Assembly (NCBI GenBank): GCA_030272155.1
Contig: CP126197.1
Location: 4,580,001 to 4,644,000, forward strand
Source: Tetradesmus obliquus
Taxonomy: Eukaryota > Chlorophyta > Chlorophyceae > Sphaeropleales > Scenedesmaceae
Length of the DNA: 64,000 bases
Direction of reading: 5' to 3'
Shown: positions 4,224 through 64,000 of the stretch, one piece after another
How the letters are laid out: each line of letters opens with the position of its first letter
How positions within the stretch are numbered: the first letter of the stretch is position 1
The notes under the pieces: generated by a model
Seen by the model: the letters and a program-made list of their open reading frames with translations, nothing else
Databases searched by the model: none
Told to the model about the DNA's origin: nothing
Program-made: the position numbers and the translations under genes

Positions 4224-7200
4224 TTGCTGCATGACTCCTGCAACATCGTAGTGCAAGGAACAGCGGAAATGCAGGTGATCAGACACACACCTGCTTTGAA
4301 ACCGCATATTTACGCTGTCTCGCACCGCATTGCTTGCCCTCGGTCAACACGCAGTGCTCGTAAAGGCCCCCCACAGCAACAGCAGCAGAACGTGTACATA
4401 CTGGGCGAGCAACTCCATGGAACACGACAACACACGCATTCTTGCGAAGCAAATAACCTCAAACGAAACCAGGATGTGGTTCAACTGCAGGACGTTCCTC
4501 TGATCCCCCTCAAGGTGCTGCTGGGCAACCCGCTTCACTCCAGTGCCAAGGTAAGGACGAGCAGCAGCACGTATGCTTGCAGCACCTGTCAGCTGCACAT
4601 CCAGCGCAGACGTCACGCCAACAGGCAGTATGTCACGTGCTGTTGCCCGCGTATCGTGCTTTGGAGAATGCTGAAGCTACAGGAGAACCGGTTTACAGGA
4701 GCACCGGTTTCCATGCCCATGCGGCGTTGAGCACTGGAGCTGCCGCAAGCGCTGCACAACACTGCTGTAAAGAAGCTGCTGCTTGTTGCAAGCCACTGCG
4801 GGCAAGAGCCAGCAGCCATGCACTGCATGACATACACGTTATGGCCTCACCTTTGGACACACTGAGTGTGCACAGCACCACGGCATACATACGGCTCAGC
4901 ATAAGTTGCGGCTGATGCCGCTCTGCTGTGTGCATCACGCCAGGTGTCTCCTGATGGCCGGTACATTTCTTACCTGAGGCCATCGCCAGATAAAGATGCG
5001 CTCAACGTTTGGGTGCGCAGCAGGCAGGCAGCAGGTGTGATGGCGGCAACAAGAAAACTGGCACACAGCAGGCGGTGCCAGCATGCAACCCTGCTCCCTT
5101 CGTCGGTCGATTGCTGGCATAGGGTGCTGCAGACACAATGTGGTGCAGTTTTAAACTGCTGCACCAGCAAAATGCCATGCGTGCAGCAGCGGTACACAGT
5201 ACTGTTCGTACAAGAGGGTGCCAGCCTATCTGTGCCTGGATGCTGTCAGCCCCGCACACACTAGGGACAGGGTAACCATGTGAGCATCTCTGGTAGACCG
5301 CTCAAACAGTCGCAAAAGATGAGCCACACGACCATGCCTGCTGCGCAGCTGCAGGTGGTGCTGCTGGTGCTGATGATGTGATGGTGACACACGACACCCA
5401 CAGGGGTGTGCGGCTGTATGAGTGGGCAGAGGACAGCAAGCACATCATCTTCCTGCAGGTAGCAGAAGCGCTCTTATAGTTGGGGATGATGCGGACTGAC
5501 ATCTGCATGTGAAAGCAGTAGACAAGAGGGTAGATGACAGCAAGCACATAATCTTCCTGCAGGCAAGAACAGCAGACATTGCTAGCTGCGGAACTTGGCA
5601 AGCACTGCCACAGCAATAGCGCTGCCCACACCCGTGTGTGGGAGACACCGCACTCAACTGTAAACGGAGCGCATCTTCCTATGCAAGTGCTGCTAGCTCT
5701 ATTGGGCTGACTCTGTGGAAGCAGCAATAGTTTGAGGCCTGTGTGTTGCTGTTGCAGGATGTGGGTGGTGACGAGGACTGGCACTTGTACGCGCAGGCAG
5801 TCGACAGCAGCAGCCTCTCAAGGGACCTCACGCCTTTCAAGGTGGGCCTGCAGCAGCTGCAGGTGCAGCAGCGCAGAACATCAGGCAGCAGCAGCAGCAG
5901 CAGCTGGTGCGCTGCTGTGGCATAATCTGTGAGCACTGCTGCTCATTTTGTGCATGCAACTCACTTCTGTCTCCTGGTTGCTTGCAGGGGGTGCGTGCAG
6001 AGAACATCATCACTGATCCACACCACCCAGCAGAGGCAAGTGGCAGCTGTATCAGCAGGCCATGCAGCAACTAGGCAGCAGCTGAACAGACGACATGCCA
6101 CGTGCAGCTGGCTAAAACCAACAGCAGTGTTGGTGCACACACGATGCAGATCAGCAGCCGTCTCTGTAACTTGACAGCAGCAACAACAGCAACTAAGGAA
6201 TCCACGCTCTGGCTTGCAAGCCTGCAGGAGACATGGTGCAGCTGAACCGCAGTCTGTTTTGTTGCTCGTCTGTCAGCGAGCGTCAGCAGCACCTCTCGTG
6301 ACTTTGCCATGGCCTCAAACCTCAGCCTGCTGAGCTCCATGTGCCTTCTAGACTCCTTCTATATTGAGGCGCTGGGCCACATGTAATGCTGGTATTTTTT
6401 ATGGTAACGTCTCATTGATGTGGCTGCTGTATGTGCACCCATGCTGCTGCTGCAGGTGCTTGTGGGCCTCAACAAGCGTGACCCGCGCTGCTTTGACATG
6501 CACCGCCTCAACATTAGCACGGGCGAGCTGCAGCTCGACACAGAGAACCCAGGTGGGCGCATGTATGGCTCTGAACATGTGTGTGTGCCTGGCGGCATGA
6601 CCCACACAGTCCGTGGCACAGTCGCGTGCGTGTTGGTGCAGATGCTGCTGTCTTGCAAAGAAAAGCTGACAAGTGCCATGTACAGGGACAGCTGACAAAC
6701 AAATTGGTCAAACATTGGTCAACCTTTGACTTGCTTTTTTTCCTGCAGGCGATGTGGTGGCGTGGTATGCTGATGCCGACTTCCAAGTGCGTGCAGCACT
6801 GGCCATGAACCCTCGCAATGGCAGCAAGACGCTGCGGGTGCGGCAGGGCCCTGATGCTGCCTGGTCTGACTTGATCACATGGCCTCAGCAGGAGGAAGGG
6901 CGCGTGGTGTGCTTTGCAAAGGATGGCAGGTGGGGCGCTGTTCACAGCAGCTATTGGGGTCAGAGAGTTGCAGTATCTGGTATTGTTGCAGCACTCCTCT
7001 AGCCGAAGCAGCAGAGCTAGACACCAGGGTGCAGCATACTGGTCGTGCTGCAATAGCCACACATGCAAAGCACTTCATAACATTCAGCTTGTATGTGCGC
7101 TGGCTGCAGGTCTATCTACGTGACCTCTTCCCTGGGTAGGGACACCACAGAGCTGCAGCTGCTGTCAACAGACCCTGCTGCAGCACCTGCTGCTGCTGCT

Positions 7201-10183
7201 GAGGCCCTGCAGGACATTCCAGCTAGGGGTGCTGTAGCAGCAATCCAGCGGCAGACCTCTGGAGTAGCAGCTGCTGCTGCTGCTGCTGAGGGTGCTGGCA
7301 ATGGTCCTGCAAGCAGCAGCAGCAGTGGCCCTGCAGTACTGTCCCGCCTGGCCAGCTCCGAAAAGTGTGATGTTGGGGAAGTGTTGGTTGACCGGCTGCA
7401 GCGGCTGCCTCTGGCAGTTGGCTTCAACTACCTGCGCCAGGAATGGCAGGTGAGACGGGGCCACAAGCTTTTGCTGCTATCTCTGTTGTAACTGCTGCAT
7501 CACTGGCTGGGCTATTGGTGTTTATTCCACTGGCTGGAATACATGATATGCAAGATGCCTGCAAGTGCAGGAGCCTTCTCTGCTGAGGCGCTGGTGTTTT
7601 CAAGGGCGTTAATGCTGCGTCGTCAAACTCTAAAGTTAGTCACACATCTACACTCGTCTGCTGTTCATGCCTATGGCAATGCCCGCAGGTGCTGGACCCC
7701 TCCCTGCAGGCAGACTTTAAGCTGCTGCTGTCCTTCAAGGGCGCTGACGCTGACCTGTCTGTTGAGGCGCGCTCGCTTGATGGCAGTGTGTGGCTGGTGG
7801 CCTACAGCAGGGACGATGCAGCAACAGAGTACTGCGTGTACGACAGGTGGGCCCTGCGGCTCCACATGTCTCATTTGCACTGCTTCAATGCTTTTTTTCA
7901 ACAGCTGCAGCCCAACGTAGCAGAGCTGCAGGCGCTGCATGACAGCTTGCCCCTTCACTATCTCTTCAGCCTCACCCTGATGCCGCTTTTCACACAGCAC
8001 TTGTCACTGCTAGCTCCGAAAGGTCAAAAGGTGCCTGCATAGGAACGTCAGCTGCACCTCTGCCGCTGCATGCTGCTGCACTGCCGCAGGTCTGCAGCTG
8101 GCGCAGGTGCTGCGGGCGCGCTGCGATTCCTGTTTGTGAACCGGCCAGAGCTCAGCAGCTACAAGCTGGGCAGGCGGCACCCAGGTGAGGGCCCTGTTCA
8201 TGCTTTTTGGCAAGTCAGCGTGTGCATGTGTCTGCTGCTGTAGCAGCAGAGGCTGACTTGCAAGAGGCAGCAGTGGTAGGGTGATGCCATGGCAGGGTTG
8301 CATGATGCTGCTATCACGAGTGTCATCCAGTTCTGATCAGTCAAATCCTGTGTTGTTCAAACAATGCAGCACTGCACAGCCTGACATCTGACTTTGCCTG
8401 CTGTCTTGCTGCTTTAGTTGCCTCTGCAGTGCTCCTGCAAGCCCGTGATGGCGTCACCCTACCAGGGCACTTGATGTCATCCAGGTCTCTGTGCTGCGCA
8501 TGCCTCAGCGCTTGACCCTCTGTCGCTTGACTTGCCTGCTGTCTTGCTGCTTCTTTTACTTTGCAGTGCTCCTGCAAGCCCGTGATGGTGTCACCCTACC
8601 CTCCTACCTCACCCTACCGCCCCTGCCCAGCACCCCCAAAACCCTGCTGCCTCAAAGCCCTGAACCCTCGGGCCCTGGGGCTCAGGGCTGGGGTTCAGTG
8701 TCAGGGCTGCAGCTGCCGCTGGTGCTGTTTGTGCATGGCGGGCCTTGGGCGAGAGATGGCTGGGGGCTGGACTCGACAGCCCAGTGGTTTGCCAATCGCG
8801 GCTATGCAGTGCTGCAGGTACGGCTGATTATCTGGCTGTTGCACTTCTCGACTCTGTTTGGGTGCCTGCGAGTGCGGCGTCGCTTGCAGGGTATACTGCA
8901 TGTGACTTTAATTCAGAGCTTGCTGCTCTGCACACTGCACTTGTTAGACACAAAGACACACAACACCCTTCAAAATAGCGGTCTGCCTTCAAGGCGTAGT
9001 TTGAGCAATCACACAGGTGTTACAACCAGCCTGCTGACTCACTCCTGCTGTGCAGGTCAACTACCGGGCCAGCAGTGGGTTTGGTAAGCGCTTCCTGCAC
9101 CTGGGTGACGGCCAGTGGGGAGTTGGCACCATGCAGCACGACCTCAGCGATGCAGTCGCCTGGGCGGTGGCTGCTGGCATTGCTGACAAGGAGCGCGTGG
9201 CTATCTATGGCGGCAGCTACGGCGGGTAAGTAGTACGATGCGCGCTGGCCACTAAAACAGTGCGGGCGTGCCAAGCGACAGATCAGCAGAAGCAGAGTGA
9301 TGTGACTGCGCTAAATTTCTGGATGGCTCATATGATGCATGCCATCTGAGATGCTGGCTGGACCCACATGTATGTGCTGTAGCTCTGTACTGTTGTTCTG
9401 CACCAGGCAGTGTGGTCTGTGGCGCCTTTTGTCTCTTTCCATTCGTGCCCAACAGCTCACGCGTGAATGAACGGAGGTTATGCGACGCTGCTGCCCCAAT
9501 GCTGCTGCTGCTGCTGCCGCCGCTGTTGCTGCTGCTGCCGCCTGCTGCCTTCGCCTCTGCAGCTATGCCTGCTACGCAGGGCTCGCTTTCACCCCTGACC
9601 TGTACTGCTGCGGCATTGACATTGTGGGCCACAGCCACCTTCCTCAACACTGCTGCTGCTGCTGCTGCTGCTGCCACCTGCCTCCTCACTGCACTGCACC
9701 AGGTATGCCTGCCTCGCAGGGCTTGCCTTTACTCCAGAGCTCTACTGCTGCGGTGTCGACATCGTCGGCCCAAGCCATGTGGCCACCCTGCTGGGCACCA
9801 TCCCTGCCTACTGGGCTCCCATGAAGCGCATGCTGGTGGACAGGATAGGAGATGCGGAGGGCGATGATGGGCTAAACCGCAGGTGGGTGAACACATGCAT
9901 GCAAGGCCCGATCCATGCTGCATTCCTAAGTGCGTGGTGGGTTACCTGGTGTGCCAGCTGTTCAGCTCAAGTCTTCAGCATCCCCAGTCCCAGTTTGTTG
10001 TTGACATTGTTGGCCTCAGCCATGCACCACGCTGTCACGCGAGCACCACTCATCATCGCGCAGGGCGCCAAAGACACATGCTGCTGCTGCTGCTGCTACT
10101 ACTGTGTGCGTGCAGAACTCGCTGCTGTACCACGCAGCCGCCATGCATGCGGCGCTGGTCATTACGCAGGGCGCCAACGACCC

Positions 10184-10217
<34 letters not shown>

Positions 10218-11316
10218 GTGTTTGCAGGATCTCGCCGCTGTACCACGCAGCCGCCATGCGTGCGCCGCTCATCATTGCGCAGGGCGCCAACGACCCGCGT
10301 GTGAAGCGCGCCGAGAGCGACCAGATCTACAATGCACTGAAAGGCAAAGGACTGGAGGTGCAGTACTTCCTGTATGAAGGTGAGCACGTGCACACGTGTG
10401 ACTGTAGCACGTATGGAACTAATGTCTCTGTGCATTGCTGTCTGCTGCATGCTCCAAATGTCACAATGATCACAACGATGCAGCCAGGCTTCTGCATGTG
10501 TTCAGCATGCAGTTGAAGGCCGCAGTGGCGGCAGCATGCAAAGCAGCTGCCTGCCTTCCCACAAACCACCAAGGTACAAGCCATATGGCTGAGCGGCAGG
10601 CGCAGCACACATGGTAATCACCCTCAGCATGTGGCTTACGGCTGTCGCTGAAGTTTGGTGAGCGACATGATGATGAGTTGATGATGTTGTCGGTGCTGCT
10701 GCGCCTGTGCAGATGAGGGCCATGGCTTTGCCCGGCCTCCGAACCGGCTAGACTTCTGCAGCAGGGTGGACCATTTCCTTGCTAAGCACCTCGGCGGCCG
10801 CGCAGAGCCACCCCTGAACATGCAGGTGGGCGTGTGGGATGCCGAGTTTTATCTGAAGTGCAGTGAAAAACGTGGACATAAATGAAAGGGAAACTTGTGC
10901 TTACGCTGACGCCCAAGCTTTGCCTGCAAATGCTTCCAGCTGAACCTGGAGTGCCACGTTGAAGCTCAGCTGTTTGCTGCTGTGCTGTTGCGCTGCTGCC
11001 TCGCCTGCAGGACACATCTGTTGTGGCGCTGCATGAGTTGAAATCTTTGGAGGACTACAAGCCGCCTGCAGCAGCAGCAGCAGCAGGTGGTGACAGCTCA
11101 GCAGGAGGAGGGCGTGCAGCTGCTGTGGCTGCTGCTGCTGCTGTTGCTGGTGCTGCTGTAGCTGGCGCAAAGCATGGCGGCAGCAGTAGCAGTGGCGGTG
11201 CGGGCATGGGGCTAGGGCAGAAGGTTGGTTTGGCTGTAGGCATTCCTGCTGCTGTGCTGGCTGGTGCTGCTGTGGTGGTGGTGGCTGTGCTGCGTGGCTT
11301 GAGCCCTAGGCGGTAG
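4224..11316 (+). CDS. S9 (prolyl oligopeptidase) family serine peptidase with C-terminal membrane anchor
   Basis: Predicted alpha/beta-hydrolase peptidase of the dipeptidyl/acylaminoacyl-peptidase type. Exons: 4224-4550, 4944-5034, 5355-5458, 5758-5841, 5988-6035, 6456-6552, 6749-6929, 7110-7449, 7689-7846, 8090-8184, 8567-8817, 9056-9225, 9703-9882, 10228-10379, 10713-10825, 11011-11316; total 898 codons plus stop. The N-terminal beta-propeller part shows [21 protein letters not shown] and [13 protein letters not shown]. The catalytic part shows [12 protein letters not shown], then GGSYGG (Ser about 646), GANDPRV (Asp about 731) and DEGHGF (His about 763), a complete triad. A Gly/Ala/Ser-rich linker leads to a hydrophobic segment (about 868-890) and a short basic tail, suggesting tail anchoring. 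The intron after 6035 starts with GC, not GT. The start is uncertain: ATGs at 4224 and 4269 are both in frame and no clear targeting peptide decides. Introns 3, 10, 12 and 13 carry exon echoes. Confidence 0.88.
5529..5571 (+). repeat. Echo of S9 exon 3 3' end
   Basis: Diverged copy of the exon 3 end (GACAGCAAGCACAT... TTCCTGCAG at 5430-5458) about 106 bp downstream in intron 3. The donor GT is replaced by GC in the copy. Confidence 0.75.
8399..8464 (+). repeat. Echo of S9 exon 11 5' end with its acceptor
   Basis: Copy of the intron-10 end plus the first codons of exon 11 (CTCCTGCAAGCCCGTGATGG), about 134 bp upstream of the true junction at 8567. It keeps an AG acceptor but soon diverges from the exon. 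Confidence 0.8.
9555..9641 (+). repeat. Echo of S9 exon 13 5' end
   Basis: About 80 bp copy of the start of exon 13 (9703 onward), with a CTCTGCAG acceptor. It encodes [20 protein letters not shown] against [20 protein letters not shown] in the exon; most differences are third-position or conservative. CTG runs follow and no clear donor closes the copy. Confidence 0.82.
10028..10200 (+). repeat. Two echoes of S9 exon 14 5' end
   Basis: Two copies of the segment around CACGCAGCCGCCATG / CAGGGCGCCAA precede the real exon 14 (10228). The copies end in CTG runs: ATG(CTG)n after the GCGCCAA(C)GACCC motif. Confidence 0.82.
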
Positions 11317-12622: not shown

Positions 12623-15600
12623 TCATTGCATGTCCTTGCTGCTGCTACCTTGTCCGCCACCCTGTCCAGCTGCACCTGAAGCGTTTGAGTCAAACCAAGC
12701 TGCTGCGGCAGCAGCTGGCTGCTGCTGCTGCTGCTCTGCTGAGCCTGCACTCTCAAACAGGTCCAGTACTCCTGCAAGTGAGCGCTTGTCAGCCCAGCTG
12801 TTTAACCTTACCGGCATCACTGTAAGAGTGTGCGCATCCTCGTCTTCTGCTTCCTGCTGCTGCCGCAGCTGCAACTGCTGCTGCTGCTGCCCAGTAGCCC
12901 GAGTGCGCCTTGCACTGCTGCTTGAGCTGCCGCCTCTAGGATCGGCAGCACCAGAGGTCATCGGCTGCTGCTGCTGCTGCTGTTGCCAGCCAATGCTGCT
13001 GCTGCCGCTGCCATCCACTGCAGCACCTTCTGCAGAGGTGGCCTGCCGCAGCCCAGCAGCTGATGTTGCGGCTTGGCGCACATGCTGCTGCTGCTGCTGC
13101 TGCTGCTGTTGCTGCTTGAGCTTGGCATGTAGCTGTCCCATGTCGTGCAGATCTGCAAAGCCTACACTATGAGCCAGGTAAGCATCCCAATGTTCTTCTT
13201 CCAGCTCCCCCTGGCTTTGCTGTTGCACCATGGGCACTGCTGCTGTGCTTGAGGCTGACTCTTGCCTGGAAGAAGATGCTCTCTGCTGAGTCAGCAAGCC
13301 TTGCTGCACACCACTGCTGCCAGCAGCAGCTAGCCTGCCCTGCTCACCACCTCTCTGCTGCTGCTGCTGCTGCTGCCAGCTGGCACTGCCAATGCCAGTT
13401 TCACCAGGGCAATCGGCATCAGCTGCAGCTGCTGCTGCTTGTGCAAGCCGGTCCTGCAGCAGGCCGGTCGGCACAGCATGCTGCTGCTGCTGCTGCTGCG
13501 CGTGCAGCTGATGAGCACTCAGCTGCTCCAGCACGTCAGCAACCTGGGCCTCATACGCATCCGCAGTGTGCTGCTGCTCCTGCTGCTGCTGCTGCTGCTG
13601 GCCCGGCGGCACGTGCCTGCTGCTGCCAGCCCTTCGAGCACTCGGGTGCACTGCAGCAGTGTCATGGAACTTGGCCCACTCAACTAGAGCATGCCCTGTG
13701 GGGGATCGCTTGGGTGGCACTACGCAGGGCGCGTAGCAGTGCCCCCAGCGGATGGATCCTAGCACTGAGTAGACCTTGCTGCGCATGGCCAGGTGGCTGG
13801 TGATGTACTGCGTGGCTGACGCCACCACCACAATCTCAGCGTCAGCATCCTGCATACGGGCAAAAGAACAGCACGTGGATAAAAGGGCAACGGTACGTGT
13901 TGTTGCAACCGCATGCTGTCAGGTTGCAGGGCGGCTCAAGATGTGCGGCACAGCTAAAGAAAAGGACCAGGAGGTGGGACATTATATTGGCGTACCGCAG
14001 CATGCAGCAGGCCGCCACCTTCAAGATGAGAGCGCATTTGCAGGACTGTGGCACCAACTGCGTTGCATCACATGTGTCTCGTCTCCCATGTAGTGTCAGC
14101 GCAACTGCCGCTGCTTCAGGCATCTGGCACAAACAAACAAACAACAAAGCATCACACACTGCATACACTGCAGAGGAAGCTGCACTTCCCGCACCTGCAG
14201 CATGCCGTGATCCAGTCCTTCAGTGGGCTGTCAGGCCCAATCCCGTGCCCAACCACCACCGGGTAGCGCAGCAGCAAGCTCACACCTCGTGTCTCTGGCA
14301 TGCCATGCATAATCAGCAAGACTGCCGCTACTTTTATATTCAGCCCCTTGCAGCTGTCGCTAACAGCAGCACAGCTGGGTAGTGCAGTAGGACAGGCACA
14401 CAACTTGAATCTCAACACATCAGACGCTGCAGGAGCAAGTGAGGTGCAGCACATCTCACCTGCAGCATGCCGTCTGGTGTGATCCAGTCTTTGAGCGGGC
14501 TGTCAGGCCCAATCTCGTGACCAACCACCACAGGATAGCGCAGCAGCACGCTCACGCCACTCTTGGCCCGCGTCATGGCAGCAGCAGCAGCGCTGCTGGC
14601 GGCTGTAGCCACCACACCGTCTGCACACTGCTGCTGCTGCTGCTGCTGCTGTGGTGAAGCTGCATCACTCCACAGGTGCCGAGTGAGGGGCAGCTCCTGA
14701 TGGCTGTATGTCTGCGTCTGGCAGAATGCTGCTGCTGCCGCTCCGTCTGCTGCTGCTGCTGCTGCTGCTGTGCTGGGGCCTCCAGAGGTGCTGCTGTAGC
14801 GGTAGATGAACATGGTCACACTCGCACAGCACATCTGAGAGGGGTAGGCGTCACCCACCCTGCAGCAGCAGCAGCAGCGAACCGAGTTTGTGATGGGTGC
14901 GGCTTGTAATTGGTGGCACAAGCAGCCGCAGGCAACAGCTGCCATCAAATGACTGGTAACACGATGCACACCAGATCTGCCAATAGCATGAGGAGCAACC
15001 AGCAGCAGCCGCCACAGCAACCGCGCCCCCTGGGAAGCCTCTCACCTGACAGCCACGAACCAGCGCCCGTCAGCCCCCTGCGTCACCACCAGCTCGTCAG
15101 CCAGCAGCAGCGTGTTCTCACCCAGCCGGGGCCGCGGGATGCGCCGCGCTCCCCCGAGCACAACTGCACGCGACAGCCGGTGCGGCGGCATCAACGCCAG
15201 ACCTGGCTGCGGCTCAACATCATGAAACCTGCATGCACCACAGTTTCAAAATGGCAGACGAGCCGACAGAAGTGCGCCGCATGATATCAGAATATATTGC
15301 AGAGGCAGCTGCGGATGCGGCATTAGCTACAGGCGGAGCCACTGCGTGCAACAGAGCAAGCCAACACCGACCATGGCTACTGCACGTGCATGGACACCCC
15401 ACCTAAGTGCATGCAACAGTAACACCAACCGCCGAGAAACGTCTCAAGTTGCCGAACACACAGCAGCACGACTACTGCTGTCACTCCAGCTAAAGCGCCA
15501 CTGGCCTGCCGCCGCACCTGGACAGGTTGATGCTGTGCTGCGTGTGCCCCTGCCCCGCCTGCTGGATGATGTTCACAAAGGTGCAGCCCCAGTGCACCTC

Positions 15601-18600
15601 GCTGGGCAGGTAGGACTGGCGGCTCATGAAGCTGTCGCCTAGCTCGCTGGTGCCCTCAAATGTGACCACAATCTCAGCGCCAACCGCTTCTAACGACTCG
15701 CTGGTGTGGCCTGCAGATGACATGGTGAGCAACAAAACGAGGGGAGTTGTGTCAGCGACCAGTTCAGCACGCACCCTTCTTGACATGTGCTGGTGTGGTG
15801 GCCTGCAGAGCAGCAAGGAGGAGGCACCAGACCAAGGTGGTACATTGAAAGAAGCGACAGACATGCCGGCCCATGCACCTGTCGACCAGCTCGCTGGTGC
15901 CCTCAAACATGACCACGATTTCGGCGCCCACCGCTTCCAGTGACTCGCTGGTGTGGCCTGCAGGAGACATATGTGGGTCCACAGGATGTGAATGCAGAGC
16001 ATGCACAACAAAAGCCACAGACTCGCCGGCACAGCCGGCAGCAAGACGGTGAGCAACCGAAACAGCGGAAAGGAGCCAAGCGTACATATAAGTGTGCACT
16101 GTCAGGCAGCGGCTGCTCTGATGTGCCCGACAGCACATATTGGCGACAATTGTGACAACGTTAGGCAGACTCTGTTCAAGCAGAAGCATGAGCCTCACCA
16201 TACAGCGGGCTGCGCTCGTCAATGGTGTGCTCCACCACCACCGGCAGCAGCAGCGTGGCGTCCAGGTAGTGCAGCGGCAGCGGCGTGACGCCCACAGGGA
16301 TGAGCTCACCCTCGGCCGTGGTGTGCCCTGGGCCCCAGGTGTACAGCAGCGCGTGGATCTTTGGGGCTATTGCGGTGCGCTTGCGGATGTCTGCCACGCG
16401 AAACATCCTGTAAATCAATGGAGAGGAGATAATGTGCAGGGTGGCAGAAGAATAGACGCCAGGTGTATAGCACGTCATAAATGTTTGGGGCAACCGCGGT
16501 GCGCTTGCGGATGTCTGCCACGCGAAACATCCTGTAAATCAATGGAGAGGAGATAATGTGCAGGGTGGCAGAAGAGTAGACGCCAGGTGTATAGCACGGC
16601 ATAAATGTTTGGGGCAACCGCGGTGCACTTGCGGATGTCTGCCACGGGGAACATCCTGTGTGAGTACAAAAAGAGGCGGTAATGTGCAGGGTGGCAGCAT
16701 GATGGCCCCAGGTGTACAGCACAGCATGGATCTTGGGCGCAAATGCGGTGCACTTGCGGATGTCTGCGACCCGGAACATGCTGCAGCATGTCCGACACAG
16801 AGGGCAGAGATGCACAGCATGGAGCAACAGGCGCGGCAACGTTGGACGCATTTGCACAGGAGCGGAACAGTGTTGCCTGAGCATGCTGCTGTCAGCCACT
16901 AGCACGCAGCAGTGTCGCAGCAGACCCAGCAGCTCATCAGCACCACCCTACTAGTTTGATATCAGGATACAGCAACCCAACCAACACCTCAGCCAACCGG
17001 CTGCACCCAGCAAGCCCACTTACATCTTGAGGATGCCGTCAAGCCCTTGACTTCTTATACTAGCTGACATCCACAACCGTAGCAACAACCGGTGCCATCA
17101 CTCTGCTACAAGTCACTCACAGCTTGAGGATGCCATCGCGCCGCGCGATGCACGCGCACTCGCTGATGAGGATGGTCCTGCTGCGGCCCTTGGGGTGGCT
17201 GATCTTGGCGAAGATCACACCTATGAACACCGCCTCCAACAGCACCGCAAGGATGCACTGGATGCCCACCAGCCAGGCCGGCAGCCAGCAGTCGCCAATA
17301 GCATGAGAGCCGTAGCCTGGGGTGAAAGGGGACATGTGCATCAAGAAACAGTGTGCTGAACGTACGGGGTTGGGCATGAATGTGCAAGGTCGTGTTTGAT
17401 TGCTAGGGCCATTGCAAGCGGCTGCTGGCGTAGAAACCGCTGCACCAGCTGGTATGCACCATGCAACCTGGTAACGTATTATGCACATCTGCAGAGAGCC
17501 TCTGACAAGCCTGAAGTGGGCAGCAGCGCTCACCGATGGTGTTCTGCGTCTCGATGGAGAACAGGAAGGCTGACAGGAAGGAGTGGAAGCCCAGGAAGCA
17601 GCTGCCGTCAACCCTGCAGGCATTGTGACCAGCACACGCAGTCGGGTAACATCAAGTGGAAGAACGAGAAGCAGCTTCCATTCACCCTGCAGACACGATC
17701 AACTATACACAGCACAGCATGTTTACCACACACAGCAAATTACAATGGAAGCCAAGGAAGCAGCTACCGTCCAGCCTACATGCACATGTGTGCAATCACA
17801 TCACAGCTGACAAGACGTGGAACAATTGCATATCTGCTGTGCTGCCACTCACTTCCAGATCACGTAGTAGATGCACGCCCAGAACACCGCTGCCGCTGCT
17901 GCTGCTGCTGAACTGCTGCCTGTGTGCTGCGCTGCCACTGACTTCCAGATCACGTAGTAAATGCACGCCCAGAACACTGCTGCCGCTGCTGCTGCTGCTG
18001 CTGAGCGAGGTCCAATCCTATGTGCTGCACTCACTTCCAGATCACGTAGTAGATGCACGCCCAGAACAGGAAGGAGGAGATGAACACGCCCACCATGGCC
18101 GCCACAATGTACAGGAAGCGCGCATGCACGGCGGTGGTGAAGAAGTCTGGCAGCGGCAGCAGCAGCAGCAGCAGAGCCGGACGCAGTGGTGCACAGGCAG
18201 ACGGGGATGACGCTTGCACACAGCACTTACTTTGCGAAAAACACACAAACCACAGGAACTGCACCACTCAATGTGACAGCTAAGCAGCTGCAGCGCTGGC
18301 CATGCACCTAAAGCTGTGCTGCACAGCAGCAGCTGTTTGACGGAAAAAAATTGCTGTACTGCAGCCTTCCTGTTCAAACAGCTGACAAAACAGCCATGTT
18401 CGCTGCCACACACGGCTACCGACACCAGTTGGCATCTGTTGTTGTTGCTGTCTGCGGCTGCGGTTGTTGTTGCTGCTGCATGCTCTGCTTCATCTCACCT
18501 CGCCTCCAGACATGCCGCAGGATCCTGCTCCACTCGACGCCATGGTACATGACCCTACTCTTGCCAGCATCCCTGCAAGTGAAAGCAACAGGCAGCACAC

Positions 18601-25354: not shown

Positions 25355-25384
25355 GGATCATTTCTATTAGCCCATACCTTTTCG

Positions 25385-25480
25385 CAGCAATGGATAATGG
25401 GGCTGCTGCTGGTGCCACGCCAGGCGGGGCGCTGGAGCCGCCGGCTGCAGCAGCTGCAGTGGCCAGTAGCAGATGAGCAT
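25385..25480 (+). repeat. Echo of the coding 3' end and stop codon
   Basis: Copy of 25290-25358 (CAGGCGGGGCGCTGGAGCCG... AGTAGCAGAT) about 118 bp downstream. Both copies carry an in-frame stop. This shows that the duplication process also hits gene ends, not only splice junctions. Confidence 0.88.
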
Positions 25481-36124: not shown

Positions 36125-41176
<5,052 letters not shown>

Positions 41177-48200: not shown

Positions 48201-51200
48201 GCTGCTGCGGCAAGCCAAGAATGGCCGGCTGCAGGAGGTGCTGGGGCAGACTGACGCATGCCTGAGGCAGCTGGCGGAGAAACTGGGCGTGGCAGAAGGT
48301 GGGGCTGGCAGTCGGCATTTGGTGCTTTCTAGGGGTGCTAGCACCCTCTTAGAGGTGGCGTGTGCTTTGTTGTGGTGTGTTTACGTGGTGTACAGTTGCA
48401 TGGGGTTGTGTCGTTGGCGGCTGACACTGGAGCAGCATAGTGATGCATGAAAGGGGGCTGCAGGAGGTGCTGGGGTAGACGCAAACCCGTTTGAGGCAGT
48501 CTGCGGAGAAGTTTGGGGTTGCAGAAGGTGGGGCTGGTGGTTGCATTTGGTGCTTGCTGCTGCGCAGCTGGGCTCTGTGTGCATATGAGATGTGAACGGT
48601 GGGAGTTGCATGGGGTTGTGCATCACAGGCACCAATTTGGAGCATTATTGTGTTTGAAGCATTACTGTGATGCAGCTAGGGGATGCACGACGGACCTCAC
48701 TGCGCATGACGAATGCACTCAGAGCATATCGCCCAATGCATGCCTGCCAACCAACTGCTTGTCATCGCTGCTGCAGAGTGCGACCCTGCCACCTGCGACG
48801 CTGCAGCCTCTGCTGCTGATGACAGCAACAACGAGGCTGGTGTGCTGGACAGCAGCGCCGCATGGATTAAGCTGGCGGCGCAGCTGCCTGCGGACATCCC
48901 GGAGCAGCCTACTATGGTGAAGGGCGGCACGCTGAGGGAGTATCAGATGCAGGTGGGTGGTGGCTGGGGCAGCAATTGCAGCACTCTGGCTACTGCTGAA
49001 GTTGGCTCGACTAGTGTAGCGGTGCAGTGGCAAGTGACGGCGTGGAAAACATTGCCACCTCTGTCTGATACTGCGTTTGCTTCTGCATATGTCCGCCTTT
49101 GTGTTCAGCATGTAAACGCCCTCTGTGTGTGTTCTTGTGTTTGTCTGCTTGTGTGTGGTGCCTCCTGCGTGCTGTGCGGCTTGGCCAGCTGCGTGGCTGC
49201 TCAAATGCCCGCTCAAAAGTTTCATAGATATGGTGTGAGAGGATAGCTACGTGCGCACCTATAAACAAACGGTCCTTTGAAATGCCTGCCTGGCTGCCTG
49301 CGTGTCTGCCTGTGCTGCAGGGTCTGCGCTGGCTGGTGGGGCTGACTCAGCGGGGGCTGAACGGCATCCTGGCCGACGACATGGGCCTGGGCAAAACCCT
49401 GCAGGTGGGCACGCTGCAGTGTACCGCGTTGGGCACGGATGCGGGGCAAGCGGCCATTTAGCAAGAGGGCCTGTATTCTGATAGACACTGCATTGTTGTG
49501 TGCCGCTGCACAATCTGCACGAGCCGTGTCGTCTCAAGCCAGCGTGTTCCAGTCCAACGGTGTACGAGCATCATGCAATGCTGTGACTTTTCTTCATGCC
49601 ACTTAACAAGCGTGCATGTGATTTTTATGTCTGTGCACTGCCCCCCTGCAGCTGCAGGTCATCTCCATGGTGGTGGTGCAGCAGTGCTCCAGCCCCTTCC
49701 TCATCGTTTCCCCAGTCTCTGTGCTGAACAACTGTACATGTCCTGTATGTTTTCTGTGTGCTTGCCGCCTCCCCTGCAGGTCATCTCCATGGTCTGTCAC
49801 TCTGTGGAGGTGCAGCAGTGCGCCAGCCCCTTCCTCAATGTTTCCCCAGCCTCTGTGCTCAGCGACTGTACATGTGTTGTGTGTATGCTGCTCCCCTGCA
49901 GGTCATTTCCATGGTTTGCCACTCCGTAGAGGTGCAGCAGTGCGCCAGCCCCTTCCTCATTGTGTCCCCAGCCTCTGTGCTGAGCAACTGGGCCCAGGAG
50001 CTGCAGCACTGGGCGCCTGACCTGTCAGTGGTGCAGTACCGCGGCAGTGCAGATGCGCGAGAGGAGATATACAGGAAGCAGGTGTGTTAGGCATGTTGCA
50101 AAGTGTGAATCTGTGGGAGGGATAGCAGCAGGCAGGTTGTGCTTGTTGGCATTGCTCTGGCTGCACATTTTTGTGGTGCATGCTTCTGCTTCTGGTGCAC
50201 CTTACATGCCCACAGCAGCAGCAGTAGTGGCAGCCGCTGACCATGCGCTGTGTCCCGCTGTGGCGTGCAGGTGCGCAAGAAGCACTTCCATGTGCTGCTG
50301 ACCACGTATGAGCTGCTGATGTCTGAGGCTGACCGGGCACGCCTGGTGAAGGTCAAGTGGCAGGGCATCGTGGTGGACGAGGGACACAGGTGGGTGGGTG
50401 GGGGACACACTAGGGGACACAGTGTGTCGGGACACAGTGTGTGTGGGGACACAGTAGGGCATTGTATGGTAGACAATGCACCAAATCATGTGCGAATTGA
50501 CGCAGGGTGTAGTTGCAGCTGCACGTTTCACATGATGGTGGCTTGAGGTTGATTAGTGATCAGGTGGCAGGGCATTGTGGTGGACGAGGGACACAGGTGA
50601 GGTGGGGCACTCAGCATGTGGGGATACAGTGCTTGGGGACGCATTGTGGGCCACAGCAGTAAGTGCATGTTGGTACGTGCATGTTGGTGCTGATACTGGC
50701 TGGATGCAGAAACCAGCACACAGCATGAAAGTCTTTCCAGCTCCTGACCAATGCACACCATGATTAGCAGCTGCCTGCTCTTTTAGTGCCTGTTGTGTTT
50801 ATTTCCTTGCAGGTTGAAGAACTCGGACTGCAAGCTGGCGCAGCAGCTGAGGGGCTACACCAGCAGGAGCAGGCTGCTGCTCACAGGTGCGCTGTGCAGC
50901 TCAGCACCTTTCTTTGTTGTTTGACAGCCCCCCGGCACATCCCGTAAACACACTGTGTGCATAGCGCACCTGACAGGGCTAGCACATGTAACAACACGTG
51001 AACACACGGTGTGTACGTTCTGTCTGGAAGTGCAGCAATGCTTCTAGCTTCATGCTGCAGCAGCTAGCCTTGCAGCCAGGCCACAGTCAACGATGCCAAA
51101 TATGCCTCTGTTTACAACACTTCGCATCACCCAACATTCGTCATATTTGATGTTATTATCTGCCTGCAGGCACGCCGCTGCAGAACAAGCTGGGTGAGCT

Positions 51201-54200
51201 GTGGGCGCTGCTCAACTTCCTCATGCCAGACGTGTTCAGCAGCGCGGACGACTTTGACGCCTGGTTCGGCGCACCCCTGCAGGCCATCAAGTGAGCATGT
51301 GTGAACATCGTGTTGTGCAAGAGATGCGGCAGCTTGTGCAGTGCCAATGCGCCAGGCGCTCAATGCGCTGTTGGCCTGTTGATTATGCACAGTTTAGTGT
51401 TGGGGTGGCGGGCAACAGCCTGAGGTGGTTTGCTGCTGTGCAACCTGTGAGCATATCTGTCCCGGGCACTAGGTGCTGCATACAATCGTATGTGCTTGTT
51501 TGTCCATTTACACTCTCTGCATTTTCTGCATGCGTCCCGTAGGGCTGCCGGCTCTGCTGCTGCGACTGCTGCTGGGTCAGCTGCTGAGGCCTCCATGCTC
51601 AACCAGGAGGAGTACCTGCTGGTCACAAACAGGTGTGTGGTTTTGTAGATGGGGAGGGGTTGCTGACAAAAGTGCCACTGCACATACACATGCAACAACG
51701 TGTAGATGCAGGCCCATACACGGCCAGGATGCTTGGTCGTTGCTATCTTTGCATTGCTTTATGCAGCAAGCAATCAGTGATGGAACGACGGAAACGATGG
51801 AGGAATGCATGCAGAATACTTTGCGTTGCTGCAAGGCCTGCACGATGACCCTGCTAAAAGGCAGCGCCTGCGCTGTGCTTGTCTGTATGCGTGTGGCTGC
51901 AGGCTGCACGCCGTGCTGCGCCCCTTCATGCTGCGCAGGCTCAAAGAGAGTGTGGCCACGGAGCTGCCACAAAAGGTGCGCCGCATGCTGTGTAGCAGCT
52001 GCGGCACACGTTGTGCTGTGCCAGTGCAGCTGCAGCGGCTTATGTGTTCAGATCATGCATGTGCCATGGCAGTTTGCTGTGTTTGCACCTGTGGCAGTGC
52101 TGCACCCACCTGAGCCATCACCACACACACTAAAGCTTTTCAAACCACCCCCAACCATCCGCTGACCAATCAAAACATGCTGTGGTGCGCCTGCCTTCCA
52201 TATGGTTATGATCTCATGATTGTTGCAGTCTGAGGTGGTCTTGCGCTGCCGGCTGGGCCCCTACCAGTCTGCGCTGTATCACCTGGTCAAGAGCAAGCTG
52301 CGGGCGGAGGACGGGGAGGGCGCCGGCGTGAAGGGCATCAACAACACAGTCATGGAGCTGCGCAACATCTGCAACCATCCGCTGCTCAGGTTTGTGCAGT
52401 GAATGTGCAGTTGTACGGCTGTCAAGATTGTGGTTGTGATGCTCATTGATGGCAAGAATGGTGCAACCCGGGTTTGAGCTGAGCGCCTGCTGCACCTCCA
52501 CCCTTTGCTTAACACCCGCTGGCTCTGTGGAACATAATGCAAACGCTGTGCTGCTGCATGCATGTATCTCCCTGCAGCAAGCTGCACCCCAACTTTGGCA
52601 ACAATGGCTGTAGTCATTGCCTTTCTGCCCTGCCAATTTACTCACACTGCTGCCCTTATTCTTGCTCTGCAGCAAGCTGCACCCTGACTTTGGCGAGGAC
52701 CTGCTGCAGCGCCAGCCGGCCAGCAGCAGCGGCCCCAGCCTGCCTGCAGTGCTGCGGCTGTCCTGCAAGGTGGACCTGCTGGACCAGGTGAATGATGATT
52801 CAGGCTCCCCTTGCAGTTATTGCGTGCTTTTATCATGCACCATTATGCGGGTGCACTCCAAGAGTACTGCGTCTGTTGCGCTGCGCCATCACCCACCATA
52901 ACCACACCCGATCCCACTCTGATGTGCTGTCTGTTGCTTGCCATCCGCAGGTTTTGACTAGGCTGGCTGCAGGCGGCCACCGTGTGCTGCTGTTCTGCAC
53001 CATGACTCGAGTGCTGGACGCACTGGAGGAGTACTGCGGCTGCTGCCATTCAATTGTCAACCACCATAATGACACCCAATCCTGTTCTTATATGCTGTGC
53101 TTTTGCAGGTTTTGACACGGCTGGCTGCAGGCGGCCATTGCGTGCTGTTGTTCTGCACCATGACACGCGTGCTGGACGCACTGGAGGAGTACTGCGGCTG
53201 CTGCTCTTCTCCATCACTCACCATTACTGCACGCTTACATGCTCTGACGTGCTGCCTTGTCGTCTTCCCACCCCTTACCACCGCAGGTTTTGACCCGGCT
53301 GGCTGCCGGCTGGCACCGCGTGCTGCTGTTTTGCACCATGACGTGCGTGCTGGACGCACTGGAGGATTACTGCGGCTGCTGACCACCACAACTGAATGCT
53401 GCTTGGATGTGCTGTGTTGCTGCCTGTCGCTGCAGGTGCTGACACGCCTGGCTGCTGGCAGGCACCGCGTGCTGTTATTTTGCACCATGACTAGAGTGCT
53501 TGATGCACTGGAGGAGTACTGCGGCTGGCGGGGCTGGGAGTGGGAGCGCCTGGACGGCAACACAGGCGGGCAGGAGCGTGCAGACGCGATCAAGCGCTTC
53601 AGCAACCCAAGTAGGTTGCAAGGCTCACTGAACCTGGCAGTTGAACTTGATAAAAGCTCTCAGGCTCTGCACATAACCCTCTGCATGTGACCTTTGCTGC
53701 TGGCTTCACACAGACCTGGCATCTTTCCCGTCCATGTTCAGCTGATGCCTCTCTCTTGGCAAGTGCCCGGCACAGCTGTTCCCTACCTGCTGCTGCTGCT
53801 GCTGCTGCTTGCTGTTGTCTGTTTGCTGCTGCGCTGCTGCAGGCTCCAGCGTGCTCCTATTTATGCTGAGCCTGCGTGCAGGCGGCGTGGGGCTCAACCT
53901 GCAGGCTGTAATTCACCCTACTGCTGCCGCTGCTTGCTGTTCATCTGCCGCAGGCTCGGGCGTGTTCCTGTTCATGCTGAGCCTGCGGGCTGGCGGCGTG
54001 GGGCTCAACCTGCAGGCAGCTGACACAGTCATCATGTACGACAGGTGCGGGTGACGCTGCTTTGGCTAAACCGGAACGTGGTATAGTATTGATATGACAC
54101 AGTCAAAATGCTCAAAAGGTGCAAGGTATCAAACTGCAGCAGGAAGAGGCAACACACCAGCAAGCTTGCACTTACCAGCAAGCCGCTGTCGCCCCACCTA

Positions 54201-58038: not shown

Positions 58039-58073
<35 letters not shown>

Positions 58074-59657: not shown

Positions 59658-62600
59658 CTACACACCACCAATCAGAAGATGCTGCACAAGCAGCGCCAGC
59701 AGCAGCACCCACCACCTCACAGCCCAGCTACAACCCCCTGCCCCTGCTGCTGTCCCTGCCGAGTTACTTCCCCCTAGCCGCAGCCTGCTGCTGGGTGACA
59801 CCCTTCCCTGCAGTGTGCTTGGCTGCAGCGGCGCAATCTCAAACACTGCTTTTGATCCATCAAAGTTCAAGTCTGCAGCTGCTGCAGCTGTACCGTCGAG
59901 CTCATGGTAGGGGTCTGCTGGAACCTTTGTGAGGGCATATCCCCAGGTGCCGAATTTTGTCTCCACTGTGAAATTGTTGCCGCACACGTCCTGCAGCATG
60001 TGACAAAGATATGTTGTGGCATACAGTGAATGCACTCCCGGCAGAAAGGAAGCCTGGGTTGCAGGTGGGTGTGGCTGCAAGGCAGCAGCTGCTGCAGCAA
60101 GAGCTTCGGGCACTACTATAGAACTGCAGCTGCACACCTACAATGTACATGCAGGCATTGCCAAAAACCTGAAGGTGCTGTGCAACTGCAGTGCCACGGC
60201 AAACTGGAACTGCCGGATGTGTGTGGGTAATTTGAATTGCCCAAGCAATGAAGGAGGAACTGGGCACTGTATGCAACCTTCACGGGCGGGACATCAGCTC
60301 GCTGGGCTAGTGCCTCAGATAGGCCCGCCCTGTACTGTGGTAATGGTGTTGGTATTGGCAAAACTGAGTGACATGCACATCACCTTCATCATCAGAGTGA
60401 ATGCCTTTGCCTTACACCTGATGCAACAATAACTCTTATGCTTACACCCTCAACCTCACCTTCATAAGCACTGTGAGTGTGTGGTTCCGCTTGTCATGCA
60501 GCTGCACATTGAAAGGCGACCGGCACTCCAACTCCCCATAGTTCTGACTCAGCTTGCCGTCCACGAAGCAGTAAGTGCTCCCAAAGCCCTCAAACTCCCA
60601 TGAGAAAGGGACTTCGCTGTGACGTGGTATCTCCTGCAACTCTGGAGGGCCTTCCAGGATTCGGAAGCGCGACATCCTGTGCTGGATGCCCATCTGTGAG
60701 CAGCAGTAGTTGTTTGGTCACGACAGCAGACAGCAGCAGTAGTTGTTGGTCACAGCAGCAGACAGCAGCAGCGAGAACAGGCATGTCTTAAGCAAAGGCG
60801 CTGAACGCCCTCTCTCCGCGCATCCAACCGTAACACACCTTTCAAGCCGCACTTTGACGCCCGCTGACTCACCACTGTGCCCGGGGAGTACTGCCGCCTG
60901 GGCAGGTACTGTGTTCAAATCCCACGACATGCACATCTGCCACAAACACATGTACGCCAAGTTGCAATTGAAGTTGTATGCTTGCCGACGCACGACTGTG
61001 CCCGGGGGGTACTGCCGCCTGGGCAGGTACTGCGTTCAAATCCCATGAAATGCACATCTGCCACAAACACATACACGCCGCATTGCAATCAATATCATAT
61101 GCTTGCCGACTCACCACCGTGCCCGGGGGGTACTGCCGCCTGGGCAGGTACTGCGTTCAAATCCCATGAAATGCACATCTGCCACAAACACATACACGCC
61201 GCATTGCAATCAATATCATATGCTTGCCGACTCACCACTGTGCCTGGGGGGTACTGCCGCCTGGGCAGGTACTTGTAGAAGCCCTTGAGCACTTCAGGGG
61301 CCTTTGTTTCATTGTAGGTGGCCACACTGCCATGGCTCAGGGCCATCAGTGTAGGAAAGCGTGTGGTGAGGCTCACCTCCAGCTGCAGTGCAGTGCAACA
61401 CATTTGTTTTCAAGAGCAGGCAGCACATCAGACTGAGCATACCCGCCACACAAGTTGAGGGCCATCAGGGTGGGGAAGCGCGCGGTGAGGCTCACCTTCA
61501 ACTGCAGTGCAGAGAGTTGCACGTGATTATGCGGCACATCAAACATAACATAGCTGCCACACGTGTTGAAGGCCATCAAGGTGGGGAAGCGCATGGTGAG
61601 GCTCACCTCCAGCTGCAGTGTGCAGTGCAGAGTACTGCTGAAACGTTCAGTGTATGAGAGCAGCAAAGCCACGCGCAGCCTAGCAGATGTGCAGGTTACT
61701 CTCTGCCGTTTTTTCTTTAGGCGCGGCTTGCTTGCTGCAGTGTACTGCCGGTGGCACTGTTGACGAGCAGCAGTTTGGCTACTGTCCTTGCAGTGTGTTG
61801 TATGCATGTATGTGAACAAGTGCAGGCCCGGCACTGGGCACTCACGCGGAGGTGATACCATCCCTGAGACAGCTCATGAGGATGCTTGCGGCACACATGT
61901 ATGCACCAGATATCTGTGGCTGTGTTGGAAGCTGAGGGGTGATAGGGGATGTATGCGAGGGGGTATATGGCATGTCACCCGAGGCTGCCGCCGGCCAAGG
62001 TGTACACGCGTACCGCGGCAAACGGCTCTTCAACCAACTACCAAATAGGTCACAGCAAAAACACCATCGTCCCACACTCACGTGGATGTTGTACCAGCCC
62101 TCATACAGCTCATACTCCGGGGCCCAAATGTACGGCCTAGACGTATCAGCCGTTAAAATCCCGTGCTCCATGCTTGTCTTAACATCCCAAGGCGGCCGGT
62201 GCATTTCTTGACTGCTGTGCAGAAATGCTATGCAGAGTAACTGTTGAACTGCAGAGTCTGGGTGTCTGAAAGCATCCTGGATGCGTGCAGCACACATGTA
62301 CACAACACGGATGCAGGCACACTCACGTGGTTCAATTTGAAACTAGCAATCAATCCACAGCAAGCAATAAAACTACAGGCCCTGCACTGGAGCCGCAAAA
62401 GGAGGGAGCACAGCCCCATCAGTTTCTACTGTTTTACTCACGTGGATGTTGTACCAGCCCTCATACAGCTCATACTCCGCGGCCCAAATGTAAGGCCTAT
62501 ACGTATCAGCTGCCGGGATCCAGTGCTCCATGCTTGTCTTAACATCCCACCCAGTGCCATTTTTTCATGCTGTGCAGAAATGCTGTGCAGATTAGATTGA

Positions 62601-64000
62601 CTGATAAACTGCAGAGTCTGGGTGTCTGAAAGCATCCTGGATGCGTGTGACACACATGTATACACCACGGATGCAGGCGCACTCACGTGGATGTTATACC
62701 AGCCCTCATACAGCTCATACTCCGGGGCCCAGATATAAGGCCGTGAGGTGTCAGCCGCCAGGATCCAGTGCTCCATGCTTGCCTTAGCATCCCAAGGCGG
62801 CCAGGGCATTTGTTTCATGCTGTGCAGAGATGCTTTGCAGATTGACTGTTGAACTGCAGAGTCTGGGTGTCTGAAAGCATTTTGGATACGTGCGGCACAC
62901 ATGCGTCAACACAGATGCAGGCACACTCACATGAATATTGTACCAGCCCTCATACAGCTCATACTCTGGGGCCCAAATGTACGGCCTAGATGTGTCGGCC
63001 GCCAGGATCCAGTGCTCCATGCTCGTCTTGACATCCCAAGGCGGCCAGTGCCCATCATCAGTGCGGTTCAGTTCTGATGTGAAGTGCACCACAGGGAACA
63101 GCATGGGCTCTTCGCTGCCTGGGTACAGCGGCATCGGGGGCGGGCTGATGCCTCCGATGCCGACAGCAACTGCAGCAGGAGAGAGAGATGGCAGGCAGAC
63201 AGCGGGGCTCTAACATCAGCAAAATGTGATTGCAGGCAGAAAAGCGGCGGCTGATGCCTTTGTTGCCGCGGAAGCTGCAGCAAGGACAGAGGTTTGGATC
63301 AGCTCCAAGGTGAAGTGCACAACAGGGAACAGCATAGGTTCATCACTGCCTGGGAACAGCGGCATGGGGGGCGGGCTGATGCCTCCGATGCCGACAGCAA
63401 CTGCGGCAGGAGATACAGGCAGGCAGCAGCGGGGCCTCAACATCACGGGAGCGTGAGTGCAGGCAGAAAGGCGGCGGGCTGATGCCTCCGATGCCGCGGA
63501 AATTGCAGCAGAAGGACAGCAGGCGAGCAGCGATGCGGTTCAATTCTGATGTGAAGTGCACGACAGGGATCAGCATGGGCTCCTCACTGCCTGGGAACAG
63601 CGGCATCGGGGGCGGGCTGATGCCTCCGATGCCGACAGCAACTGCGGCAGCAGAGAGATGGCAGGCAGTGTATAGGCAGGCAGCGGCGGGCGTCTGACAT
63701 CAGCGAAATGTGATTGCTGGCAGAGACGGGCTGATGCCACGAATGCCGACGGCAACTGCAGCAGGAGAGTTAGCAGGCCAGCAGCAGCTGGGCCTCAACA
63801 TCAGGGAAGTGTGATTGCAGGCATAAAAGTGGCGGCTGATGCCTTTGTTGCCACGGAAGCTGCAGCAGAAGGACAGCGGTTTGAATTAGCTCTGATGTGA
63901 AGTGCACAACAGGGAACAGCATAGGTTCATCACTGCCTGGGTACAGCGGCATCAGGGGCGGGCTGATGCCTCCGATGCCGACAGCAACTGCAGCAGGAGA
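59658..64000 (-). CDS. Secreted, probably GPI-anchored surface protein (5' end outside window)
   Basis: Only the 3' part is present. Supported exons (minus): 63169-62931, 61382-61236, 60693-60460, 59990-59658; more exons may lie among the repeats. The first codes VAVGIGGISPPPMPLYPGSE, then VVHFTSELNRT and PYIWAPEYELYEGWYNIH. The third contains FEGFGSTYCFVDGK, ECRSPFNVQL and NHTLTVLMK, resembling the C-x-x-DG ... CxSP ... HTLTV pattern of Ig-like extracellular domains. The last ends with a Gly/Ser/Ala-rich spacer (GGSNSAGTAAGAGG) and a hydrophobic C-terminus (WWVLLLALLVQHLLIGGV), the layout of a GPI-attachment signal; a single transmembrane anchor is the alternative. Sequons NRT, NET, NHT and NFT fit secretion. 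I do not recognise the family. The gene is exceptionally dense in exon echoes. Confidence 0.6.
60865..61235 (-). repeat. Three echoes of the RRQYPPGTV exon 3' end, period about 121 bp
   Basis: The exon end coding YLPRRQYPPGTV with its GTGAGTCGGC donor (true donor before 61236) recurs three times towards 60868. Copies are near-identical over 121 bp including intron bases; nearly all coding differences are synonymous, with one Pro/Ser change in the farthest copy. Confidence 0.93.
61440..61630 (-). repeat. Two echoes of the LEVSLTTRFP exon 5' end
   Basis: Copies of CTGCAG/CTGGAGGTGAGCCTCACC and the next 12 codons, at about 61453-61510 and 61565-61622; the true exon starts at 61382. Both code LxVSLTxRFPTLMA. 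Confidence 0.9.
61850..62820 (-). repeat. Three to four echoes of the GWYNIH exon 3' end
   Basis: Copies of about 130 bp end at donors near 62684, 62441 and 62082, with a strongly diverged one near 61850 (ELSQGWYHLR). All keep GTGAGTG and code an intact WILAADTSRPYIWAPEYELY-like peptide with few changes. The nearest copy differs from the exon at 12 synonymous and 2 replacement codons. Each is preceded by an AG that could act as acceptor, so they might be real alternative exons. Confidence 0.9.
63170..64000 (-). repeat. Tandem array of the VGIGGISPPPMPLYPGSEE junction, period about 240 bp
   Basis: GGGCTGATGCCTCCGATGCC recurs near 63131 (exon), 63371, 63612 and 63972, with a shorter copy near 63730; spacing is 240, 241 and 360 bp. 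A second element (GCTGATGCCTTTGTTGCC) alternates with it. The array runs past the window end. Confidence 0.9.

Follow-up and report, generated by a model that had tools for sequence, protein, structure and literature searches.

Many introns of the green alga Tetradesmus obliquus carry copies of the ends of their own neighbouring exons together with the adjoining splice consensus. We describe these copies in a 64-kb stretch of DNA analysed as a whole (C7:4580001-4644000 of an assembly of 104.66 Mb in 17 contigs; hereafter the window) and in a further 250 kb drawn from ten contigs, one place on each, a sample of 314 kb in all. The layout of a locus is plain: the coding copy, E, is contiguous with the rest of the exon, a spacer lies beside it, and beyond the spacer stands a decoy, E', with a splice site; in about half of the loci the unit is repeated further. 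Our reading, which we hold with about even confidence, is that exon borders have repeatedly been copied about 120 bp into the neighbouring intron through an old seed duplication and subsequent turnover by exchange; the generating mechanism is a proposal and unproven.

The census took local matches 25-1000 bp apart that reached at least 50 bits and at least 30 matching bases outside low complexity, with inverted matches and a local order-1 shuffle as controls. After filtering, the 314 kb held 233 direct repeats, compared with one inverted match and none in shuffled sequence, and the direct-repeat alignments cover 33,206 of the 314,000 bases. Merging left 110 loci, of which 31 belong to the window, where self-comparison and census gave 66 alignments (one local inverted match, none shuffled), and 79 to the 250 kb elsewhere. 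The exon-boundary echoes that a sequence-only reading of the window had described are thus real, and they occur well beyond it. Copies are 67 to 100% identical, and locus density is uneven (0-14 per 10-kb block, 6-17 per 40-kb block). The clustered spacing noted in that reading was also recovered: the median is 124.5 bp over the 110 loci, with 81 at 90-159 bp, a second group of 15 at 220-269 bp and a single locus below 80 bp.

Gene-finder labels are approximate (repeats were masked during training) and now and then mark a decoy as an exon. This biases the classification towards borders, so that genes mapped by protein provide the safer evidence. Exon maps were obtained by spliced alignment to the window of the deposited OEZ86 proteins OEZ86_008018 (Kir), OEZ86_008023 (QCR7) and OEZ86_008024 (SNF2); all three maps are gapless, and by score every SNF2 residue matches, with Kir and QCR7 each one residue short. 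The stretches used were Kir exons 1-10, QCR7 and SNF2 exons 1-19, with the final exons of Kir and SNF2 omitted as doubtful, and they yield 29 usable introns. A copy in the adjoining intron was found for 14 of 58 exon ends, whereas only nine of 1624 non-adjoining control comparisons exceeded the same threshold, and 13 of the 29 introns carry at least one copy. These 14 exon ends are exactly those named in the sequence-only reading for the three genes, once its SNF2 and QCR7 exon numbers are lowered by one. All 12 census loci inside the mapped stretches touch a mapped exon border and none is intron-only. The 14 copies sit inside existing introns of 283-713 bp, most of them beginning well away from the host intron's own splice sites.

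The wider sample shows the same preference by gene-finder labels. Among the 106 loci with a spacing of 81-300 bp (the other four of the 110 fell outside this range), 96 lie at an exon border, six are exon-only, three intron-only and one intergenic. Placing the same spans at random yields 69.7 border (standard deviation 4.6), 12.4 exon-only, 19.6 intron-only (standard deviation 3.8) and 4.3 intergenic, and a single unit placed at random yields 43.5, 20.5, 36.3 and 5.7, respectively. With W marking loci in the window and B1, B2, B4, S22 and S26 sampled stretches outside it, the intron-only trio consists of W 8389, which on inspection is an exon missed by the labels in the putative gene S9 (a name taken from the sequence-only reading), S26 2342, which on inspection is minisatellite-like, and B2 36872. 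At L009:6872-7037 a perfect 35-bp repeat, 131 bp apart and with no exon label, is the best candidate for an intron-only event.

Anatomy of the copies and arrays

Many two-copy loci have the form copy-spacer-copy, with a spacer unlike either flank. In 44 spaced two-copy loci (spacing at most 300 bp; a few, among them W 57335, B2 29732 and B2 36872, are not at labelled borders), the spacer was compared with both flanks and with 60 simulations of neutral tandem duplication, their divergence being set by the matching part of each locus. In 40 of the 44 the spacer falls below all 60 simulations, and these include all ten loci with at least 92% identity; the exceptions are W 48227, B1 35732, B2 29732 and S22 195. 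The matching part in the 40 loci is itself 69-100% identical. A cruder comparison of spacer with flank gave z>4 in none of 40 pairs (control 1/40) and z>3 in six (control 3/40). Six of 42 two-copy loci are nearly full-unit, none above 90% identity, and compatible with plain tandem duplication; B4 9462 and B4 38448 are also nearly full-unit and were counted as 2.0-unit arrays. Plain tandem duplication is therefore the pattern of a few two-copy loci and not of most.

Where the junction is labelled (38 two-copy pairs), similarity extends from -2 to 144 nt past it into the intron. The ten pairs with at least 92% identity reach 2, 4, 5, 6, 7, 7, 9, 12, 15 and 30 nt, seven of them staying within 9, and the reach of low-identity pairs is biased upward, since such pairs are found only by longer alignments. 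Copy length and spacer length are correlated at -0.74 over 35 two-copy pairs, a value to which the spacing limit of at most 200 bp on these pairs contributes, and spacing looks like the controlled quantity. Automatic splice-motif typing of the 110 loci proved too noisy and was discarded.

Of the 87 loci with spacings of 81-200 bp, 45 consist of units repeated without interruption, 2.0-5.9 in number. B1 19320 (on L003), the clearest array, repeats an exon end of what is presumably a ClpR-like gene in 4.6 units that are 98% alike inside, has an exon copy at both extremities and differs in its outer flank; in all arrays viewed the repeated units are alike inside. Intron sequence belongs to the repeated unit in the arrays W 16331, W 60863 and B1 19320 and likewise in the full-unit loci B1 37297 and S26 5389.

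Origin of the copies and fate of the decoys

In the account that we prefer, the seed would have been a local duplication of about 120 bp, made by template switching or by staggered-break repair, and the family would then have been maintained through recombination between the exon-end copies. Such turnover would expand, shrink and homogenise E, while intron sequence, having no constrained partner, would lose similarity, so that old loci would come to resemble exon-only copies edged at the splice consensus. The outcome would be longer introns, spare splice sites and an occasional new cassette exon. Because continuous repeats make up so large a share of the loci, exchange between copies seems frequent, and it is the commonness of arrays, together with some patchy identity, that leads us to prefer a seed followed by exchange. 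Of 76 loci, nine show clustered mismatches at p<0.05, with 3.8 expected by chance, and five at p<0.01; these are mostly arrays, some of them in low-complexity coding sequence. Exchange between diverged haplotypes was considered as the cause of the lost intron similarity and dropped, since third-position divergence in the ten loci with at least 94% identity (10 of about 183 sites) is too low for introns to have become unalignable.

Several observations weigh against this account. Among the ten two-copy loci whose copies are at least 90% identical there is no full-unit tandem duplicate, and with full-unit loci so few, and none above 90%, young seeds were not caught. The array ends do not settle the form of the seed, as 13 of 45 lie within 0.1 of a whole unit number where nine are expected by chance; this holds for none of the six arrays that are 88% identical or more. 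In two-copy loci the clustering test has little power. Introns with one two-copy locus (n=32) are longer by 96 bp in the mean and 151 bp in the median, which leaves undecided whether a whole unit (168 bp) or a copy only (77 bp) is added per event. Finally, the almost total absence of intron-only families is explained only indirectly.

The failure to catch a young full-unit seed leaves considerable weight on direct exon-limited copying, which we regard as possible while leaning against it. Here about 35-110 bases of exon end with the splice consensus would pass straight into the intron some 120 bp away, skipping the intervening intron, perhaps guided by a transcript or by the splice site. The short reach of the ten most similar pairs, the lack of spacer-flank similarity in all ten two-copy spaced loci at that identity (one of which, B2 36872, is unlabelled) and the near absence of intron-only loci all argue for it. 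However, intron sequence is repeated in the five loci named above, and the copy at 25262, which holds a coding end and stop codon, has no splice site. The broader claim, that a process acting on DNA copies exon ends and splice consensus over a fixed distance of about 120 bp without the intervening intron, has made tens of thousands of copies and is a main cause of the long introns of this species, appears to us rather doubtful. We know of no molecular process that yields exon-limited copying with such edges.

The sequence-only reading had proposed a tandem duplication blind to position, with selection purging the copies that break exons and the rest decaying neutrally. Neutral divergence ratios fit this model, and a few full-unit duplicates exist, so that its picture of a tandem unit including intron stands for those loci; in 40 of 44 two-copy spaced loci the remainder of the unit is not recognisably copied, and the cruder z test agrees. 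When blind tandem duplication of 124 bp and neutral decay are simulated under detection cut-offs similar to those of the census, 1.44 non-coding-only loci are expected per border locus, whereas four were observed to 96, about 35-fold fewer. Position-blind duplication is accordingly already disfavoured, and we consider it unlikely. Part of what survives of that model is the contrast between a constrained real exon and a decoy that evolves, splice sites included, at about the neutral rate.

This contrast is seen in the 97 loci that offer 24 or more exon columns, in which real and decoy copies differ by codon position in the ratio 245:254:453 over 8097 columns, and the intron columns of the same alignments hold 1181 differences in 7508; the codon counts keep exon-only loci, where both copies are coding, and take their frames from the gene finder. 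Divergence per site is 0.092 for the first two codon positions, 0.168 for the third and 0.157 for introns. Decoys, then, drift neutrally on average, and the joined real exon changes silently and keeps its protein sequence. We had considered the third-position excess as a sign of constraint on the decoys and dropped the idea, as the counts fit neutral decoys combined with silent change in the real exon. Decoy splice sites retain GT in 39 of 49 donors and AG in 30 of 34 acceptors, with about 0.82 expected at the neutral rate, so the decoys are mostly spare.

One decoy may nevertheless be in use. In the 140-aa form of QCR7 (P0001), the copy at 43773-43832 (+) forms an in-frame 20-residue repeat, that is, a 60-nt cassette exon of the deposited model by the protein map. 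Neither the 120-aa form nor any of six further aligned algal sequences has this repeat; a search of 14 control genomes for the QCR7 family gave no match. The copy is part of its parent exon and uses a new acceptor, while most loci hold one exon end, and its role as a cassette exon is one predicted by the deposited gene model. That decoys in general are kept for a function, as alternative exons or as splice regulators, finds its example here, but seems very improbable to us: positions 1 and 2 differ less than the paired introns just as they would with one neutral lineage, QCR7 decoy copies 2 and 4 carry frame-shifting gaps, and splice dinucleotides persist at about the neutral rate.

A comparison of protein models suggests that echoes are gained or lost within the species. 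In OEZ85, a further assembly of T. obliquus, the SNF2 model carries, where mapped exon 14 is followed by an intron, an insertion whose last residues, NICSHPML, nearly repeat NICNHPLL; in the OEZ86 window (52390-52672) the corresponding intron shows by eye no copy of the NICNHPLL type but a short copy of the start of the next exon.

Two further explanations can be given hardly any weight. A short mobile element or introner that duplicates a long target on insertion would produce the copy-spacer-copy layout, but the edges follow the splice consensus, the target duplications given for some introner families, as far as that account goes, are of 3-9 bp (PMC9860276), and seven queries (three array or locus regions and four spacers) matched only themselves in the 104.7-Mb assembly, very common words being skipped; with four spacers single-copy genome-wide, no dispersed element was seen, nor was similar sequence present at many unlinked loci as in introners. 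The copies are known from assembled sequence, so an assembly or polishing artefact might be suspected; yet they range from 67 to 100% identity with a neutral, codon-structured pattern, and the OEZ85 assembly shows an echo of its own in SNF2, which makes this scarcely credible.

Loci in the window

By gene-finder labels 27 of the 31 window loci lie at an exon border, and inspection added a 28th, the S9 exon start at 8389-8600. The remaining three are exon-internal (57335), CAG-rich coding (56055, whose spacing of 411 bp lies outside the classified range) and an intergenic minisatellite at 11778-11897, three 40-bp units 97% alike that lie outside predicted genes and are unlike the 120-bp class. 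The loci that follow come from the census, joined by the protein map in the mapped genes, unless stated otherwise.

S9 (+) has an exon-end copy 104 bp downstream with the decoy GT lost (5421..5563; also by self-comparison), the copied exon start with acceptor 139 bp upstream (8389..8600; border by inspection), a near full-unit duplication including the exon start at a spacing of 136 bp (9514..9777) and an exon start array of 2.3 units at 106 bp (10053..10296). In Kir (-) the end of exon 9 (14192..14558, spacing 265 bp) and the start of exon 7 (15617..15970, 247 bp) are copied, the start of exon 6 forms an array (16331..16783, 124 bp), the start of exon 4 is copied (17584..17784, 162 bp; self-comparison and exon-end test) and the end of exon 3 forms an array (17827..18068, 90 bp).

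QCR7 (+) holds a copy of its first mapped exon's end with the donor (42766..42912, 107 bp) and four copies of the end of its second mapped exon (43488..43960). SNF2 (+) shows a copied exon start (47958..48133, 133 bp), a copied exon end (48227..48558, 229 bp), a real exon start with two decoy copies (49652..49990, 122 bp), a further copied exon end (50353..50648, 207 bp), a short exon-start copy (52572..52694, 95 bp; self-comparison and exon-end test), an exon start array (52819..53527, 167 bp) and another copied exon start (53819..54017, 111 bp). A 1180-codon Ala/Gln-rich open frame (54703-58242) lies at the SNF2 C terminus and is handled differently by the OEZ86 and OEZ85 models.

Among the other genes, one that we take to be exosome/RNase PH-like (+) has a copied exon start (21334..21478, 90 bp). 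A presumably glycosyltransferase-like gene (+) has an exon end array (23758..24169, 113 bp), an exon start array (24254..24784, 122 bp) and, with no splice junction involved, its coding end and stop codon copied 122 bp downstream (25262..25483; 89% over 100 bp, stop codon included). The sequence-only reading had placed gene-end copies at 25385 and 59583; the first is this copy, and the second is weaker (59565-59708, 80% over 55 bp, by self-comparison only). A copy that it saw inside coding sequence at 27875 does match, 96.7% over 90 bp at 27862-28082, in CAG-rich sequence that lies outside the filtered census. The Ser/Pro-rich gene (+) has an exon end copied with its donor (33485..33688, 139 bp). 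A minus-strand gene, which we assume to be FAD-oxidase-like, has exon start copies at 38363..38849 (183 bp) and 38991..39600 (118 bp), and an exon start array at 40386..40720 (97 bp) is assigned to it and to the minus strand by inspection, the gene finder having labelled it plus. An unnamed minus-strand gene carries an exon end array (60863..61273, 121 bp), an exon border array (61339..61629, 119 bp), a second exon end array (62073..63051, 245 bp) and an exon start array that runs up to the window edge (63062..64000).

The segments 1-3858 and 26636-31083 are diverged copies of one gene about 27 kb apart, 66-77% alike in pieces, the former with what we take to be a MYND-like C-terminal motif. 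A perfect (GCA) run of 131.7 units occupies 37418-37812, and CAG/CTG runs are common throughout the window. A Pfam search of two whole 15-kb minus-strand frames gave no match.

Known systems and intron length

Exon-end echoes were not described among the literature matches listed, which comprised titles and abstract openings, mostly outside subscription journals. Unequal exchange in minisatellites expands and contracts arrays and homogenises their units; the present arrays may behave alike, but their unit is anchored on a conserved exon end and they lie mostly at exon borders. Internal gene duplication and tandem exon duplication, reportedly treated by Gao and Lynch in 2009, likewise act within genes and are able to create alternative exons, of which the QCR7 decoy is reminiscent, whereas here mostly partial exons ending at a border are copied, at about 120 bp and many times per gene. 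Also close are the ATP2A1 and potato RdRp cases, local intragenic duplications that carry splice signals; in potato RdRp, as far as described there, the duplicated unit is mostly intron-exon structure, and one of that gene's introns holds a tandem duplication of 83 bp (PMC4974935). Those cases, in that account, concern a new intron at a single locus, whereas ours are copies in existing introns at many loci, where the extra site normally goes unused and the unit's intron portion can often not be recognised. Intron gain of the Rogers type, with a new intron bounded by two copies of an AGGT-bearing exonic segment, was not found in the mapped genes. Introners, described as occurring mainly in lineages that evolve fast, green algae among them, are in that description also a genome-wide source of intronic sequence (PMC9860276); here there is neither a shared element nor dispersed copies of the four spacers searched, and the copies derive from the neighbouring exon.

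Introns with copies are longer, in line with the route to intron growth that the sequence-only reading had proposed: gene-finder introns have a median of 497 bp with a locus (n=77) and 247 bp without (n=309; p 3e-15), and mapped introns 488 and 276.5 bp, respectively (n=29; p 0.0002). Since longer introns also offer more room, it is by inference that we take copies to lengthen introns rather than the reverse. About 10.4% of the 314 kb consists of extra units, and a density of 79 loci in 250 kb outside the window would correspond to roughly 33,000 loci genome-wide, a rough figure because 10-kb blocks range from 0 to 14. Mean intron length is given as 462 bp in T. obliquus and 230-302 bp in four other green algae in Table 1 of PMC5966456, and echoes would supply a source of such long introns. 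The decoys are able to mislead gene prediction, and near-identical real and decoy sites standing side by side make the origin of splice choice testable. For the alga itself, the echoes would provide many spare splice sites from which cassette exons can arise, as seen once, in the QCR7 gene model.

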